In this document: in pieces, positions 50,234-61,530 of the stretch | Position numbering within the stretch: the stretch's first letter is position 1 | Layout of the letters: each line of letters starts with the position of its first letter | NCBI GenBank assembly: GCA_027078545.1 | Contig: JALWXN010000004.1 | Location: forward strand, 799,100 to 863,099 | DNA: 64,000 nt | From: Nitrososphaeria archaeon | GTDB lineage: Archaea; Thermoproteota; Nitrososphaeria; Geothermarchaeales; JDFR-13 | Direction: 5' to 3' | Made by a program: the position numbers and the translations under genes | The notes under the pieces: model-generated | Database searches by the model: none | Seen by the model: the letters and a program-made list of their open reading frames with translations, nothing else | What the model was told of the DNA's origin: nothing

Positions 50234-51004
50234 ATGGTCTTCGAGGGATTTATCTATAGCTGTGGCTATGAATTGAGGGGTGGTAGGGTGGAGCCCCTCA
50301 CCAACGCATTGATATTCGGCGCTATCGTCTCAGGCGTATCCCTAGTCGCCATATTATTGGTGAGGGCGCTCCGCCTAGACAGGATAGGTATAAAGTATCA
50401 GCTCGCACTAGCATCGGGAGTATTCATAGGCATAGCCTTCCTAGGAGCGTTACCCAGGATTGTAGAGACGGGGGACGAGGCATATGCACTCCCCGTATTC
50501 CTAGGCTTCATAGCCTTCTCACTCCTGGAGCTCTCGCTCGGCTACCATGAGCACCACCATATCGGGAGGAGCCACCTAGGCGTCATGAACCTAGCCAGCG
50601 ACCTGCTCCACAACTTCATCGACGGGATATTCATATATACAGCCTTCGCCATAGACTACGGCCTAGGCGTAACCATCTCACTCGCCACGGTGCTACACGA
50701 GGTGCCACAGGAGGTCAGCGACTTCATAATCCTGATAAACAGCGGCTTCAGCTATGGCAAGGCCGTCATCCTAAACCTGTCCGTATCACTATCCACCATA
50801 CTGGGCATACTTATCTTCAGCATGGTTGAGGTGGACACCTTGATGGTCCTAGGCTTCATAATGGGGAACTATCTTTACCTAGCCGCTGTAGACCTGATAC
50901 CCGAGGTTTCGAGGGAGACCTCGGGATTGGAGAGGCTTAAGGCATACCTCTTCTTCGCCCTAGGGATAGCTGTTATCTATCTTCTCCACACCTATACCCA
51001 CTAG
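50234..51004 (+). CDS. ZIP family metal transporter
   Basis: ASDLLHNFIDGIFIYTAFAI and VLHEVPQEVSDFIILINSGFSYGKA (ZIP metal-binding helices). Start may be further downstream. Confidence 0.85.
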   Translation: MVFEGFIYSCGYELRGGRVEPLTNALIFGAIVSGVSLVAILLVRALRLDRIGIKYQLALASGVFIGIAFLGALPRIVETGDEAYALPVFLGFIAFSLLELSLGYHEHHHIGRSHLGVMNLASDLLHNFIDGIFIYTAFAIDYGLGVTISLATVLHEVPQEVSDFIILINSGFSYGKAVILNLSVSLSTILGILIFSMVEVDTLMVLGFIMGNYLYLAAVDLIPEVSRETSGLERLKAYLFFALGIAVIYLLHTYTH

Positions 51005-51618
51005 CCCTTCCTACGCCACAGGAACGCGATAGTAACGCTTGAAATCACTAGAAGGAGGACGATTGTAGGTAGATATTCAAGGATGTAGAACGGCCTACCT
51101 TTACCAGAATATTCTAGGACATCCTCATATGTAGTGGGAATTCCTGATAGATAGTCGTCGAAAAAGGTTACTCTAGCTATATCTACAGACTTTAGGCTTG
51201 TCCCAATATAAACTTCCAGCTTACCATTAGGGTTGTTTATTAGTTTTTCCCAGAAGTTGTCCTCAAGAACAGCTCCAACAACAATGGCCTCAGGTCTACC
51301 ATTTACAACCAGTACTACCGTAGGAGTCCCCGCCTGAAAGTCGTAGTCAGAGGCGAGCCTCTTCAAAAGGTTATTATTAACCTCCTCCTCTATCCAAAAC
51401 CAAGTGAAGTTCATGTTGTTCTCAATAATGTAGTTGGCTAGGTCGTGACAGTGGGGACAAGGCCTCCATCCATAGACATACAGCGTGTAGTTATTCTCCA
51501 CTTCTAGACCACTTACTATTATAGTCGTACCTACCATTACATTACCTGCGAAGAGGCCAGAGAAGAGAAGTACAAGCAATACGTAACGATACCATATCTC
51601 AACTTTCATTTCACACAC
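51001..51618 (-). CDS. Membrane-anchored extracytoplasmic thioredoxin-like protein
   Basis: VYGWRPCPHCHDLANYI, GTPTVVLVVNGRPEAIVVG, N- and C-terminal hydrophobic segments. Confidence 0.75.
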   Translation of the reverse strand: MCEMKVEIWYRYVLLVLLFSGLFAGNVMVGTTIIVSGLEVENNYTLYVYGWRPCPHCHDLANYIIENNMNFTWFWIEEEVNNNLLKRLASDYDFQAGTPTVVLVVNGRPEAIVVGAVLEDNFWEKLINNPNGKLEVYIGTSLKSVDIARVTFFDDYLSGIPTTYEDVLEYSGKGRPFYILEYLPTIVLLLVISSVTIAFLWRRKG

Positions 51619-51732: not shown

Positions 51733-52062
51733 TTATCCATCTGAATAACCCCTCCTAGTCAGATATAGGGCGTAGAGGAGGAAGATTAGTAAGAGTATCA
51801 AGAGTGGTATGTGCTCAGTAGCTCTCTCAGCCACTTCACCCCTACTCGTCAAAATGGAGCGTGAAAGTCTTCCTATGTTAAAGGAGATAAGTATTATAAG
51901 TGGCCAGTGCGTCCCTCTGTTGAAGAGATATATTGACATTATGTAGAGGAACACTAATAAAATATTCTCATACTTGATGAAGAGTGGTATGGGTATGAAG
52001 GCCGTGACCAATATATATGAGGCAAGGACTAGTCCTGAGATTATGGCTAGTCCTTTGTCCAA
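51733..52062 (-). CDS. Small polytopic membrane protein
   Basis: 109 aa, overlaps the FTR1 gene by 16 nt. Confidence 0.55.
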   Translation of the reverse strand: MDKGLAIISGLVLASYILVTAFIPIPLFIKYENILLVFLYIMSIYLFNRGTHWPLIILISFNIGRLSRSILTSRGEVAERATEHIPLLILLLIFLLYALYLTRRGYSDG

Positions 52063-52871
52063 ACCACTCCCCTCAAATAAAGGTATATAGCCGTAACTAG
52101 GTATCCAAACTGGAGAATAACCCTTCCGACCTCCATCTTGGAGGAATATCCAATCAGGGCTGACAAGACTCCTCCTATTACATTCTTCTCACTCATGGGG
52201 TGGTCACTTGGAAGGTTGAGGTTATACACATAGGTTCCGAAGGGATCCACAGCCACCCCATTCTCCTCCATATACTCAATAGTCTCATGTACAGCATAGC
52301 CCAGTATACCGGAGGCTATAAATATAATCATTATCGAGGTGACTACGAACATCTTTTTCAGAGGCAGCCTTATCTCCAATACATAGATTAAGAAGGCTAT
52401 AAAGACTGCTAAAAGTATTCCCCCGAGTAGACCTATAATATTCTCCACGGGAGTGTACTGACCTAGGAAAGGTATCATAAACAGAACCATTTCCACGCCT
52501 TCCCTAAATGTTACGATGAAGCCGATAACTAGTAGTGCGGTAGGCCTGTAGAGATTCATTGCTACTTTTTCTCTAAGTTCTGAAACCAGAGTCTTAGCGC
52601 TTCTACCCATGTGATACACGACGTAGGTAAGGACTACAACAGCTAGGTATGACCCTGCAATCTCGAATATTGCCTTATAAGCAGTTAGCTCGTACAAGGT
52701 GTAAACACCTATTCCAAGGAGTAGACTTGTAATAACCGCTAACCCTACACCCATAAAAATGTGTTTATTGTTCTGCCTCATCCCTAGCTTGTACAAAGCA
52801 CCTGTCAGGACAGCTACGATGAGGACTACCTCTAAGGCCTCCCTGAAGCTAATTATGAACTGTGGGATCAA
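52047..52871 (-). CDS. FTR1 family iron permease
   Basis: FIISFREALEVVLIVAVLTGAL and FIVTFREGVEMVLFMIPF (paired RExxE motifs). Confidence 0.9.
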   Translation of the reverse strand: MIPQFIISFREALEVVLIVAVLTGALYKLGMRQNNKHIFMGVGLAVITSLLLGIGVYTLYELTAYKAIFEIAGSYLAVVVLTYVVYHMGRSAKTLVSELREKVAMNLYRPTALLVIGFIVTFREGVEMVLFMIPFLGQYTPVENIIGLLGGILLAVFIAFLIYVLEIRLPLKKMFVVTSIMIIFIASGILGYAVHETIEYMEENGVAVDPFGTYVYNLNLPSDHPMSEKNVIGGVLSALIGYSSKMEVGRVILQFGYLVTAIYLYLRGVVWTKD

Positions 52872-53838: not shown

Positions 53839-53937
53839 GCCTCTCCCACCCTAGAGGCATAGAGGTTTAGCTGGTTATCCTATATATATTGAATACCCTA
53901 ATCTAGGTGTAGCCCCACACATGGACCAGTGGTCGAG

Positions 53938-56454
53938 ATGACTCGGGAGTGGAGGAGGATCCCGCTATTACTCATCCCCATCCTACTATCCCTCTATCCA
54001 TACTATGGCTATAGGACGCTCCTCCACTCCCTGATACCGGGAGCCGACCCGATATGGAGGATATTCGAGTCGAACCTCTGGCCGAGCCCCTCACCCATAG
54101 AGCTCGTCCTTTTCAAGTCTATAGACCCGGCCATAGTCTATGCATTATCGGGAGCCCTCGTCTCATACGCCCTCATCCGGGGCCTAGACACCAGGCTACT
54201 CCCGGGCTACAGCCTACTATTTCTCTTGGGAGACCCCCTGACACCCCTACTACACACAGCCATGAGCCTTGGCAGGCCCGCCTATATACTCGGCCTGGCA
54301 GGCCTCATGATACACAGCCCCATAGCCGTATTAGGCCTAGCCCTACTGGGCATACTCCCTAGGAGGGCTCTAATTCCTTCACTAGCCTCGATAGCACTCC
54401 AATACGAGAGGTACTACACAGCTCTCGTAAACCCAACTCCAGAGAGTATAGTACTGGGTATCCTAGTAGTGACACTCCTCCTCTACATTGATAGGAGACC
54501 TGGGCCATGGCTACTAACACCCATATTCCCAGAGGCCTCCATAGCCTATAGAGCGGGTGGGGAGCGGGAGAGAGCCGCCCCGATACTCATAGCGATAATC
54601 ATCACGGGCCTACTCCTTATACAGCTCCCAATAAACCCCGGCCTGAACGGGGGGCTCGACGAGTTTATAGCCAGCAGTATAAGGGACGACGCAGTCCTAC
54701 TCCTAAGCGACGACCCCACCATAGTAGCTACACTACAGGCTATGGGGATATACACCTACCTATATGGAGACGCGATGGACTGGAACTGGAGCGACCGGGG
54801 GGAGATAGAGGATAGGCTCTGGGACGCTATATGGACCATGATGAGGCTTGGATACCGATACATAGTCCTGGAGAAGCCAGAGGAGCTGGCCTACTGGGTA
54901 AGCCCGGCACACTTCAACGAGTATAAATACCCGGTGAGGGAGGAGACCACCCGCTACATAATAGTGCTCGAGAGGAGAGGGCTACCAGGAGGGGCTCCCC
55001 ACTACATGGTGACCGACTTCACACCACTGACTAATTTAGAAGGGCTCTACGACTGGACATGGAGCAACGTATCAATAGAGGTAGAGGTATCAAGGGAATG
55101 GATCACCATATCCTCGGACAAGGCCTATGAGGCCTATATCCACCTAAACAACGTGTCTAGCTACTCAGGACTCGTATTCATGGCTGAGGACGGGCTGATC
55201 GAGAGTATCGAGATATACAGTCTCGAGGATGGAGTATTAAACAGCCTCTGGGAGTCGGGCAGACTATTACCAGGCATAGTCGTACCCGTGGAGCTAGACC
55301 TATCCGGTGTAGAGACCCTGGTATTCAAGGTGGAGGCCAAGGGGGATAGATCCATCAAGCTAGGGCTCTACGGTGGCGGGGAGCTCCTTGAGGTGGTTAG
55401 GGAGGGCGGCATAGTCAGGGTTATGCCCAACGATGGGCTGAGGGAGGTGAGATATAGACCAATCGATGGATCACCGGAAGGTGGGGGGAAGCTAGGCCTA
55501 AATATCCAGCTACTCAGCCTAATCCTGGGGATCGCCGCGACGTTCATACCTATAGAGAGGCATTACAGCCTAGGATCTCCACTAAAGCTGGACACTAGGG
55601 AGCTCATGCTATTCATAGTCCTTGGCCCAGCCCTACTCTACATAGCCATCCCCGATATGTTAGAGGTGAGCTGGATAGGTGCTGGGGTATTCGTGATAGC
55701 CCTGACGATGTATATCCTCAACTATATTGATGAGGAGGGCCTTGGCGAGACTGGACACACCACTATACTGGCGCTGATGCCCCTGGCAGCCCTACTCACA
55801 TACCTGGTTAAGCTCCTATATGGAGACGTCTTCGACCTGATAGGGGATTTCTGGAGGAACAGGGCTTTATACGCCACGATCGACGCTGGGATATACTCAG
55901 CATTCCTAACGCTCACAGCCATATACATAGGTGGCTGGAGAATGCGTATACTAGCCCCTGGGCTATACCTAGGTCTCAGCACAGTGGCATTCATAACCGA
56001 TCTCTCGAGGACTTCAAACCCTGTCCTACAGGCGGTTCTCGAGGCCAATGTATACCTGGTCGACCTAACGATGGAGCTACTAGGCTACAGGGTGGAATAC
56101 GTCTATACACCGCTGGGATACCCCCTATACCTCTTCGAAGGCACGAGGCTCCTGACAATAGTTATCCTGGCATGGCCCTGCGCAGGAGTTACCGGCCTAT
56201 TCCTCTTCACCGGCTACGTATCAACACTGAGAGACATATACCTCAGGAGTGAGGAGCCCATATCCCGACTAGCCGTGGCAGCAGGCCTCCTAGGCACCTT
56301 CCTACTCAACATAGCCAGGGTGGATGCGATCCTCCTACTACAGGTGTTCTATGGAGTAGATGCTGCAGAGCTCTTCCACAGCACTGCCTACGAGTTCATA
56401 TTCCTAGCCTGGCTAGGCATCTACTGGTTGATATATAGGGTTTCGAGGCGCTAG
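53938..56454 (+). CDS. Large polytopic protein with C-terminal exosortase/archaeosortase-like core
   Basis: 841 aa by track start 53929; WPCAGVTGLFLFTGYV (Cys), FLLNIARVDAILLLQVFYG (Arg), AAELFHSTAYEFIFLAWLGIYW (His). Confidence 0.65.
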   Translation: MTREWRRIPLLLIPILLSLYPYYGYRTLLHSLIPGADPIWRIFESNLWPSPSPIELVLFKSIDPAIVYALSGALVSYALIRGLDTRLLPGYSLLFLLGDPLTPLLHTAMSLGRPAYILGLAGLMIHSPIAVLGLALLGILPRRALIPSLASIALQYERYYTALVNPTPESIVLGILVVTLLLYIDRRPGPWLLTPIFPEASIAYRAGGERERAAPILIAIIITGLLLIQLPINPGLNGGLDEFIASSIRDDAVLLLSDDPTIVATLQAMGIYTYLYGDAMDWNWSDRGEIEDRLWDAIWTMMRLGYRYIVLEKPEELAYWVSPAHFNEYKYPVREETTRYIIVLERRGLPGGAPHYMVTDFTPLTNLEGLYDWTWSNVSIEVEVSREWITISSDKAYEAYIHLNNVSSYSGLVFMAEDGLIESIEIYSLEDGVLNSLWESGRLLPGIVVPVELDLSGVETLVFKVEAKGDRSIKLGLYGGGELLEVVREGGIVRVMPNDGLREVRYRPIDGSPEGGGKLGLNIQLLSLILGIAATFIPIERHYSLGSPLKLDTRELMLFIVLGPALLYIAIPDMLEVSWIGAGVFVIALTMYILNYIDEEGLGETGHTTILALMPLAALLTYLVKLLYGDVFDLIGDFWRNRALYATIDAGIYSAFLTLTAIYIGGWRMRILAPGLYLGLSTVAFITDLSRTSNPVLQAVLEANVYLVDLTMELLGYRVEYVYTPLGYPLYLFEGTRLLTIVILAWPCAGVTGLFLFTGYVSTLRDIYLRSEEPISRLAVAAGLLGTFLLNIARVDAILLLQVFYGVDAAELFHSTAYEFIFLAWLGIYWLIYRVSRR

Positions 56455-56969
56455 CCAACTATGATTGTGTAGACCAGGTAGAAGACTATAGTCGAGACGA
56501 GTGTGGATATCGCCACTAGCCAGATGGGGGAGATCCTAGCCGACTTGATTATCCTACCACGGGGACGGACAGGGATCCTCCGCCTCTCCACATCCCTAAA
56601 CTCCCTACCCCATGAGATCTGCTCAGCCTGCCTAGAGGGCTGTGGAACGGTCACGGTGAAGGGCTCTATACATGGAGCCTTCTCAAGCTCGGCCCTCAGC
56701 TGATCCATATACCTATAGACGGTTGGGAATCGGCTCCTAGTCACAACCCTCCCGAGATCCTCCTTGTGACAGGCAAGCCTATCAAGGAGCCCCCTAAGCC
56801 TAAGACTCTCGAAAAACGTTGGGACTAGGGAGGGATCCTCCTCCTCAACCATCTCGATAGCGGTGTCCAGCTTTATGAGGAAGCCGTCGAGGCTATAGGT
56901 CAGCTCATGTGCCTGCCTAATATACTCGATAGCCTCCTCCAGCCTGGATCCCTCCATCAGTCTCCACAC
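56451..56969 (-). CDS. Tail-anchored helical protein
   Basis: 172 aa; soluble helical N-terminus, single C-terminal TM (ISPIWLVAISTLVSTIVFYLVYTIIVG). Confidence 0.6.
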   Translation of the reverse strand: MWRLMEGSRLEEAIEYIRQAHELTYSLDGFLIKLDTAIEMVEEEDPSLVPTFFESLRLRGLLDRLACHKEDLGRVVTRSRFPTVYRYMDQLRAELEKAPCIEPFTVTVPQPSRQAEQISWGREFRDVERRRIPVRPRGRIIKSARISPIWLVAISTLVSTIVFYLVYTIIVG

Positions 56970-59033: not shown

Positions 59034-60800
59034 CTACCTAGAGTATAGTGGGATCGGCGGCTTCCTAGCGAGGTAGATAGCTAGGCATACTAGGAACACG
59101 GCCACGCTCACCAGTATAGTGGCTGCACCGGCATTAACGTTGAAGTAGTAGCTCAGGTAGTACCCAACGAGACCACTGAAGACACCTATCGAGACGCTCA
59201 GCCCGATATACTGCCTAGGCCTCCTACTAACCAGGTATGCCGCAGATGGCGGGACGATGAGGGCGGCTATAGCGGGTATAGCCCCTATCGACATGAAGGC
59301 AGACACCGTGGATATAGCCAGGAGTAGGAGGAGGGCGTAGTGTATAAGGCCTATCCTCACTCCCATGGAGATCGCGGATACAGGGTCTATCGAGTATAGC
59401 AGGAGATGCCTATGGAAGAGTAGGAGTAGGACGCCTATCCCCAGGGCTGATAATACCGCCCTAGTCATCATCTCGCTGGAGACAGCCGTCACATCGGCGA
59501 AGAGCACGTCCTCAAGGGATATGTTGACACCTCCCATCGTAGAGATTATCAGTGTTGCTATGGCGAGCATAGAGGTGAAGGAGATAGCTATTATCACGTC
59601 AGCCCTAAGCGTGGTCACCCTCTCCAGCGTACCCACCGTAAACGCTATGAAGAGCCCTATTAGGAGGGCCCCCAGGTAGAAGTCCGTTGCGAGTAGATAT
59701 GCCATGAGCAGCCCTACTATAGCCCCATGCCCAAGGGCATCACTAAATATGGACCAGCCCCTAAGAACGGCATATGCACCCACGGCCGACGTCATAGCCA
59801 TAAGGATTATGAGTGTAAGGAAGCCCCTCCTCAGGAAGTCATAGGCAAGAGGCTTTAACAGTGGGTTGTCAATACTAGCCACCTCTATAGCTACCTCCCC
59901 AGGCCCCTCTATGAGGGCTTCTCTAATCACCTCGGTATTCCACCTTATCATCTCGATATAGCTATAGACCCCGTAGTCGGGAGCTAGGCTCTCGAGGACG
60001 ATGAAGCCATACGTCTCAAGGCCGGCCTCCTCCGCCAGTGTCTCAACAACCTCCCTGAGGGTAGTGCCCATCTCCTCATACTCGATAATTATTACAACCT
60101 CGCCGCTCAGAACCACGTCTTCGAACTGCTCCACAACCCATGCCGTGGCCGGTTCATATACACCAGCCGTCCCGGTTATATACCCCGAAACCTCCAATCC
60201 ATATCTCTCTGCATAGTACATCAGGCCATTCCTAACAGTGAATATCGATCTAGTGGATAGCCCAGGGTCGGAGAGCACGTCTATAACCCATGCGTCGAGA
60301 CTCTCCAACTCATCGAGATACCTATCCGCATTCTCCATGTAGATATCTCCATACTGTGGAGCCAACTCGGAGAAGAGGCTGGCAAGCTCCTCCACAAGCC
60401 GCATAGCGAGGCTTACATCGTGCCAGAAATAGGGGTTCTCATAGACCCTGGGCTCATACCTGGCCACTAGGTCTAGGATACTAACCACCCCCTCGCCATC
60501 CCTGAGGCCAGCCACGTTACTCGCGATAGCCAGTTCGGAGCCATAGCCCACGTATAGGAATAGATCCGCTAGGTAGGCCTTCTCAGAGTCGGAGGGGGTG
60601 AACTCATAGGTCGAGGCATGCCTCCCCGGGCGTAGGAGGCTCTCGGCATAGCCATACTCACCCAGTATGTTCCCGGCAATATCAGAGATGAAGGGGTAGG
60701 TAGTCACGATATATAGGCCCTCAGGCCTAGTCTGGACAGGGTCGCCAACGGCTAGGAGGGCTATGAATATTGCAATAACCACATATATCCATCTCCCCAT
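59034..60800 (-). CDS. Fused metal-binding protein (ZnuA-like) and ABC-3 permease (ZnuB-like)
   Basis: N-term YIVTTYPFISDIAGNILG...NPYFWHDVSLAMRLVEELA; C-term VGAYAVLRGWSIFSDALGHGAIVGLLMAYLL and MSIGAIPAIAALIVPPSAAYLV. Confidence 0.85.
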   Translation of the reverse strand: MGRWIYVVIAIFIALLAVGDPVQTRPEGLYIVTTYPFISDIAGNILGEYGYAESLLRPGRHASTYEFTPSDSEKAYLADLFLYVGYGSELAIASNVAGLRDGEGVVSILDLVARYEPRVYENPYFWHDVSLAMRLVEELASLFSELAPQYGDIYMENADRYLDELESLDAWVIDVLSDPGLSTRSIFTVRNGLMYYAERYGLEVSGYITGTAGVYEPATAWVVEQFEDVVLSGEVVIIIEYEEMGTTLREVVETLAEEAGLETYGFIVLESLAPDYGVYSYIEMIRWNTEVIREALIEGPGEVAIEVASIDNPLLKPLAYDFLRRGFLTLIILMAMTSAVGAYAVLRGWSIFSDALGHGAIVGLLMAYLLATDFYLGALLIGLFIAFTVGTLERVTTLRADVIIAISFTSMLAIATLIISTMGGVNISLEDVLFADVTAVSSEMMTRAVLSALGIGVLLLLFHRHLLLYSIDPVSAISMGVRIGLIHYALLLLLAISTVSAFMSIGAIPAIAALIVPPSAAYLVSRRPRQYIGLSVSIGVFSGLVGYYLSYYFNVNAGAATILVSVAVFLVCLAIYLARKPPIPLYSR

Positions 60801-60807
60801 GGATCAC

Positions 60808-61530
60808 TCACCTATAGGCCTCCTCCAACACCTCCCTACGTAGGACCTCGCCCGGCGGCCCTATCCTCACGATTCCATGCCTGAAGAGGATCACCCTATC
60901 GATCTCCTCCCCATCAGATATGTGGTGCTCCGTCAGGATGACGAGCTTTCCACGCCCCTTCTCCTCCTCGAGAACCCTCATGATCCTCTCCTCTGAGGGG
61001 AAGTCGATCGACTCGAAGGGCTCGTCGAGGATATAGATAGTTGGGTCCTGGGCCAATGCACGGGCTATCATTGCACGTGCTAGCTGCCCACCAGAGACCT
61101 CGGAGAGCCTATAGTCACGCCTATCCCAGAGGCCGACCCTCCTAAGGGCCTCCTCAACCATCCTATGATCCTCCTCCCCAGGCCTGGCTAGGAGGGGTAG
61201 CCTTGGATACCTACCCATCATGACGAAGTCGTAGAGTGTGATCGGCGCATATATGTTAACCTCGTCGAGCTGGGGGACATAGCCTATCTCCCTCCTGACA
61301 CCCGGATCCCTAACCGGGTCACGGCCTAGCACAGAGACCATGCCCGAGACGGGCTTGACGAGGCCTAGTATAGTCTTCACAAGGGTGGTCTTCCCACCAC
61401 CGTTCGGCCCAGCTATTAGGACGATCTCGCCGGGATACAGCTCTAGATCCAGGCCCTCAAACACAGGGCCATTCCTATCGCTATACTTGACAGTCACGTC
61501 TCTAAGCACTATGTATGGCTCCCGGGTCAT
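60808..61530 (-). CDS. ABC transporter ATP-binding protein (ZnuC/MntB-like)
   Basis: LIAGPNGGGKTTLVKTILGLVKP, LSEVSGGQLARAMIARALAQDPTIYILDEPF. Confidence 0.93.
   Translation of the reverse strand: MTREPYIVLRDVTVKYSDRNGPVFEGLDLELYPGEIVLIAGPNGGGKTTLVKTILGLVKPVSGMVSVLGRDPVRDPGVRREIGYVPQLDEVNIYAPITLYDFVMMGRYPRLPLLARPGEEDHRMVEEALRRVGLWDRRDYRLSEVSGGQLARAMIARALAQDPTIYILDEPFESIDFPSEERIMRVLEEEKGRGKLVILTEHHISDGEEIDRVILFRHGIVRIGPPGEVLRREVLEEAYR

Follow-up and report, generated by a model that had tools for sequence, protein, structure and literature searches.

Among the described archaeosortases, the thaumarchaeosortases (TIGR04297) pair with proteins that end in PEFG-CTERM. Archaeosortase C (ArtC, TIGR03762) has been reported to recognise PEF-CTERM (PMC5244752), and for the archaeosortase of Haloferax the lipid that resolves the enzyme-bound intermediate is proposed to be archaetidylethanolamine, which is made by PssA and PssD (PMC7157517). 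Among the exosortases, EpsI is found fused or adjacent to an EpsH-type enzyme (PMC1569441). The molecule that archaeosortases join to the new C-terminus and the partner that provides it are largely open questions in the field. The archaeosortase family itself is known; what is new at the locus described here is a complete archaeosortase naturally fused to a previously unseen module. The locus probably encodes an archaeosortase specific to this lineage, whose catalytic module is complete, resembles thaumarchaeosortases and follows a fused partner made of a membrane part and an ectodomain; the enzyme would anchor surface proteins with a VIPEF-type tail.

The gene lies in a window of 64,000 nucleotides (the whole stretch of DNA that was analysed), and its features are collected in Table 1. 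The initial annotation placed this DNA in a probable Thermoproteota genome, which agrees with the closest public relative, found at 90% identity in a ‘Candidatus Geothermarchaeota’ MAG (kingdom Thermoproteati). TIGR04178, the exosortase/archaeosortase signature model, matches residues 747-840 of the 841-aa protein with 34.2 bits (E 2.4e-8) at a curated cut-off of 23, and it matches eight of the nine aligned proteins, the ninth ending before the triad region. The exosortase-family match that the initial annotation had anticipated is thus provided by TIGR04178 and not by PF09721, as a Pfam scan of the protein at E<=5 returned nothing relevant. As a sequence-based assignment, membership of the archaeosortase family is firm. 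No specific sortase subfamily model reached its cut-off and all scores are far below it, with 28.2 bits against 100 for the ArtC model and 22.9 bits against 170 for the XrtX model when the whole protein is scanned, and 20.9 bits against 250 for the thaumarchaeosortase model when the last 312 residues are used. The genome that contains the window measures 1.24 Mb over 11 contigs at a completeness of 92%, and a profile search found no second TIGR04178 protein in it.

Table 1. Coordinates of the fused archaeosortase gene and its parts within the window
Feature	Position	Strand	Basis and remarks
Whole gene, fused archaeosortase of 841 aa	53929..56454	+	GTG start at 53929, ATG at 53938 possible (838 aa); ORF, TIGR04178, homologues of 841-964 aa
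Membrane module at the N-terminus (residues 1-235) with several TM helices; GD..P (101-106) invariant	53929..54633	+	Hydropathy and alignment; predicted topology
Large soluble domain, residues 236-521, predicted outside; invariant WNWS (285-288), YI...K (311-316), WxN (378-380)	54634..55491	+	Hydropathy and alignment; predicted orientation
Beta-sandwich subdomain, residues 382-512	55072..55464	+	AlphaFold2 pLDDT mostly 63-77; Foldseek CBM-type sandwiches, low TM-score
TM helix, residues 522-540, joining soluble domain to sortase module	55492..55548	+	Hydropathy
Complete archaeosortase module, residues 557-841	55597..56451	+	TIGR04178; end-to-end alignment with thaumarchaeosortases
Cys751, predicted nucleophile	56179..56181	+	Invariant in 8/8 aligned sequences
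Arg797, predicted active-site residue	56317..56319	+	Invariant in 8/8 aligned sequences
His817, predicted active-site residue	56377..56379	+	Invariant in 8/8 aligned sequences

The Cys-Arg-His pattern at the C-terminus is present as originally claimed, with the cysteine in WPCAGVTG, the arginine in LLNIARVD and the histidine in ELFHSTAYE, and every aligned sequence long enough to cover these sites keeps all three residues, in the contexts WPCxGxTG, LNxxR and ExFHSxxY. The sortase module has a length of about 285-300 residues and starts near residue 557, which reduces the roughly 700 extra residues initially counted in front of it to about 550. Used as a profile, the last ~290 residues align (positions 4-298 of 300) with proteins of the class that stand alone and have 310-320 aa, the best match reaching E 5e-17. 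Three of these proteins were scanned, and all three are thaumarchaeosortases by TIGR04297 (498-620 bits). Because this alignment runs from end to end, the C-terminal part of the window protein represents a whole sortase. A 34-sequence tree unites the fused sortases in a single clade, which falls on the side of the thaumarchaeosortases; its exact placement is uncertain due to long branches. AlphaFold2 modelled the sortase module with a mean pLDDT of 37 from a shallow alignment of two sequences, the window protein and its 90% identical relative.

The N-terminal half consists, by hydropathy, of several TM helices and a net negative soluble stretch of about 285 residues, which a further TM helix connects to the sortase. 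No relatives of this half were found in Pfam, NCBIfam or the PDB sequences, and no second copy or stand-alone paralogue in the own genome; the phylum sample yielded no homologue in its 299 remaining genomes. AlphaFold2, run with the same two sequences, reached useful confidence only for the beta-sandwich, the TM part being modelled at a pLDDT of about 30. Foldseek searches with the sandwich returned beta-sandwich and jelly-roll folds with carbohydrate-binding modules (CBMs) prominent among them; as the TM-scores are low, glycan binding by this domain is a hint rather than a finding. The initial annotation had offered a glycan-linked anchoring machine as one possibility. The only hint of a glycan link is this moderately confident sandwich with CBMs among its best folds; the machine itself was not borne out. 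The N-terminal half cannot be assigned to any recognisable enzyme family, and its first predicted outside loop lacks an invariant acidic residue. An origin of the fused part from EpsI or from the C-terminal region of XrtD was rejected, since it sits at the wrong end and gives no match.

A bifunctional enzyme would go further: the N-terminal half would be an active GT-C-type glycosyltransferase that makes a lipid-linked sugar or transfers it, and the protein would be joined to this glycan or glycolipid by the sortase. The arrangement recalls GT-C enzymes, with membrane helices first and then an outside region of alpha/beta appearance and a beta-sandwich. When the N-half profile is compared with an STT3/AglB protein, its best local match falls on the corresponding outside region (E 0.29, insignificant). 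The Foldseek matches of the sandwich include CBMs, and the order has no phosphatidylserine (PS) decarboxylase, hence another acceptor is plausible. GT-C glycosyltransferases, however, normally keep an acidic residue in the first outside loop, and the alignment holds no invariant D or E in this loop as assigned by hydropathy. In addition, no member of the fused family has a glycosyltransferase match in Pfam or NCBIfam, a membrane part of about 235 residues would be short in this enzyme class, and a GT-C-like protein of the own genome bears no similarity to the N-terminal half. We therefore regard an active glycosyltransferase as unlikely; a degenerate GT-C fold may be considered, for which the layout and the insignificant STT3/AglB similarity are the sole basis. 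The GT-C-like protein (L086:1526-3652) is a multi-TM protein of 709 aa without a Pfam match.

At the other extreme, the N-terminal half could be a passive scaffold or surface-layer anchor that only localises the sortase and has no part in catalysis or substrate choice. Such a role would fit the low identity between the N-terminal halves (18-32%, the closest pair excepted) and the absence of catalytic-looking conserved residues, but it is improbable in view of the four motifs GD..P, WNWS, YI...K and WxN, which are invariant across genera, and of the N-terminal half being kept in every full-length copy found. These invariant patches therefore suggest a specific task, which could be the handling of substrate or acceptor.

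The size of the protein was emphasised from the beginning, and the comparison with its class agrees. TIGR04178 exceeds its cut-off in 285 of 400 class genomes and most ORFs among the matches listed have 250-370 aa, so that the fused protein has nearly three times the usual archaeosortase size. In the fetched ORFs of the class with about 600-770 aa the sortase core lies within the N-terminal half, and the two of these that were scanned match XrtD-type models, which is the known C-terminal fusion class. Among the class matches listed, a large N-terminal partner occurs only in Geothermarchaeal proteins. XrtD-like exosortases (TIGR04152, 70-84 bits, below cut-off) are encoded by some archaea of this class (L058 and L063, in G136 and G066).

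A match is present in 11 of the 12 genomes of the order, and the full-length fusions of 841-964 aa, together with one of at least 684 aa at a contig end, come from three genera of one family. The sister family is represented by one genome, G001. Here, residues 304-626 of a 710-aa ORF match the N-half profile (hhalign 93.9%, E 1.6e-7), and a second ORF directly downstream, which overlaps the first by 10 nt, starts at the sortase module (hmmsearch E 7e-5) and leaves the contig before the triad. The gene may be truly split or a MAG frameshift; in either case, the N-terminal half and the sortase belong together in both families. A search of 250 class genomes with the G001 N-terminal half matched only G001 and the fused copies. 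An assembly or frameshift artefact that merged two neighbouring genes, for which the separate, overlapping ORFs of G001 could be quoted, is practically excluded and for the window gene refuted by full-length homologues, as the same architecture recurs, at 21-90% identity, in three genera whose genomes were assembled independently, and the G001 split may itself be a frameshift, its linker lengths matching the fused form. The archaeosortase-family protein with a large N-terminal fusion proposed in the initial annotation therefore stands, with its TIGR04178 match, invariant triad and front part, and the fusion is both real and old. It is not described in the literature searched, which did not extend to the founding 2012 paper by Haft and colleagues.

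The gene neighbourhood lends no support to the proposed reading, as the neighbours vary between genera. A sorting or glycosylation operon around the gene was rejected: the neighbours are archease and translation genes in two genera and transporters in the genus of the window. A convergent ORF of about 170 aa with a C-terminal TM helix (56451-56969, minus strand) shares 4 nt with the sortase gene at its 3' end; its position is conserved in two further genomes of the genus (L019:2911-3408 and L066:12522-13028), and it has no meaningful Pfam match. Further away, a 588-aa ORF (59034-60800, minus strand) resembles a metal-binding, lipoprotein-type solute-binding domain and an ABC-3-type metal permease in one chain, and adjoins an ATPase gene (60808-61530). 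On the other side lie a secreted thioredoxin-like ORF with a PCPHC motif, a C-terminal TM helix and a basic tail (51001-51618, minus strand) and, near it, an FTR1-like iron permease ORF (52047-52871).

The survey for proteins with a C-terminal TM helix and a basic tail covered samples of the own genome (464-484 kb) and of G003 (420 kb), and one family was conspicuous in it. The own genome holds a candidate substrate (L085:14439-16391, i.e. G000:C4:755439-757391) with a signal peptide, CarboxypepD_reg domains and the C-terminus AEVIPEFGLSYLLPLIAVPTVLLIHLLRRRYKVEA, and a second protein in which NVIPDLP precedes the TM helix, so that the genome search for tails of motif, TM helix and basic residues that had been suggested did recover VIPEFG and VIPDLP tails. 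Homologues of the tailed surface protein are found in nine of the 12 genomes of the order. The pattern [VA]I[PND][ED][FLI] stands immediately N-terminal to the TM helix in all 13 surface proteins that were aligned, which come from nine genomes. Across the aligned C-terminal part, conservation over five columns peaks at VIPEF, and the TM helix is variable; as the tailed proteins are homologous to one another, part of this conservation reflects shared descent. The PEF-CTERM model TIGR03024 (cut-off 23) gives 28.7 bits with one copy from G006 and 12-20 bits, below the cut-off, with six other tails, and does not match three of the ten tails, including the IPEFG tail of the own genome. These surface proteins with VIPEF, a membrane helix and a basic tail, similar to PEF/PEFG-CTERM, are likely substrates of the sortase.

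The distribution of the two partners within the family points in the same direction: the PEF-tailed protein occurs in 9/9 genomes with the fused sortase and in 0/2 without it (Fisher p 0.018, uncorrected for kinship). This is suggestive but small, as it covers 11 related, incomplete genomes and counts the copy at a contig end in G007 as present. The two genomes without an intact sortase, from both of which the PEF-tailed family is absent, are G008, where a sortase was not found, and G002, where only frameshifted pieces with FRS in place of FHS were seen. The decayed module of G002 (L025:10800-11340) has its triad region spread over two frames with stops and has lost the N-terminal half. In G001, a large secreted protein (L027:2769-4259) is encoded divergently from the ORF pair, and the contig end truncates its gene before the tail. 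Since there are one to three candidate substrates per genome searched, enzyme and substrate form a simple pair to test.

Starting from what the sequences hold, namely family membership, the invariant triad, the module boundaries, the conservation of the fusion and the PEF-type tailed proteins, we infer a reaction, an enzyme-substrate pairing, an orientation and a task for the N-terminal module as follows. After export of the surface protein, the VIPEF-type motif, TM helix and basic tail at its C-terminus would keep it in the membrane. On the outer membrane face, Cys751 would cut beside the motif with the help of Arg797 and His817 and form a thioester with the cut substrate. By analogy with Haloferax, an amine-bearing lipid would resolve it; more generally the acceptor may be a lipid or a lipid-linked molecule, leaving the surface protein anchored by its C-terminus. 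The N-terminal module may hold the substrate, place the acceptor at the active site, or both, and its outside beta-sandwich may bind glycans.

The PssD family of PS decarboxylases (PF02666) was found in 0/12 genomes of the order, while a control search finds it in Haloferax and Methanosarcina. An acceptor made by PS decarboxylase was therefore rejected, and the acceptor may differ from archaetidylethanolamine. The fused N-terminal half would be the obvious candidate to bind or supply it. A bolder but rather doubtful extension is a sort-and-attach machine in a single polypeptide. Its N-terminal half would be a lipid-handling module, of a divergent GT-C type or of another kind, and would load the sortase module not with archaetidylethanolamine but with a different acceptor such as a lipid-linked glycan. 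If this were true, archaeal surface proteins would receive a C-terminal anchor that is so far undescribed.

Compared with known systems, the fused enzyme would share with the archaeosortase A of Haloferax volcanii, which is the model for the mechanism proposed here (PMC7157517), a membrane-bound, cysteine-based mode of action and a substrate tail of motif, TM helix and basic residues. Archaeosortase A, however, recognises another signal (PGF-CTERM), is not fused and needs PssA and PssD, the latter family being absent from the order of the window. The XrtD-type exosortases and the EpsH-EpsI fusions (TIGR04152, TIGR02914) are likewise enlarged by a fused partner, but theirs is C-terminal and unrelated, and occurs in other families of the class. 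Of the specific sortase models, that of ArtC comes next after TIGR04178 when the full protein is scanned, and the candidate tails resemble the PEF-CTERM signal of ArtC, one of them above the cut-off; in contrast, the window protein scores far below the ArtC cut-off and ArtC carries no fusion. The thaumarchaeosortases described so far stand alone without the N-terminal half, and the window protein is far from their cut-off of 250 bits. They are nevertheless the closest group in the tree, the C-terminal module aligns with them over its whole length and with the same triad, and the likely substrate carries a PEF(G)-type tail. With the fusion and the adjacent ORFs of the sister family, this lineage names a candidate partner for archaeosortases.
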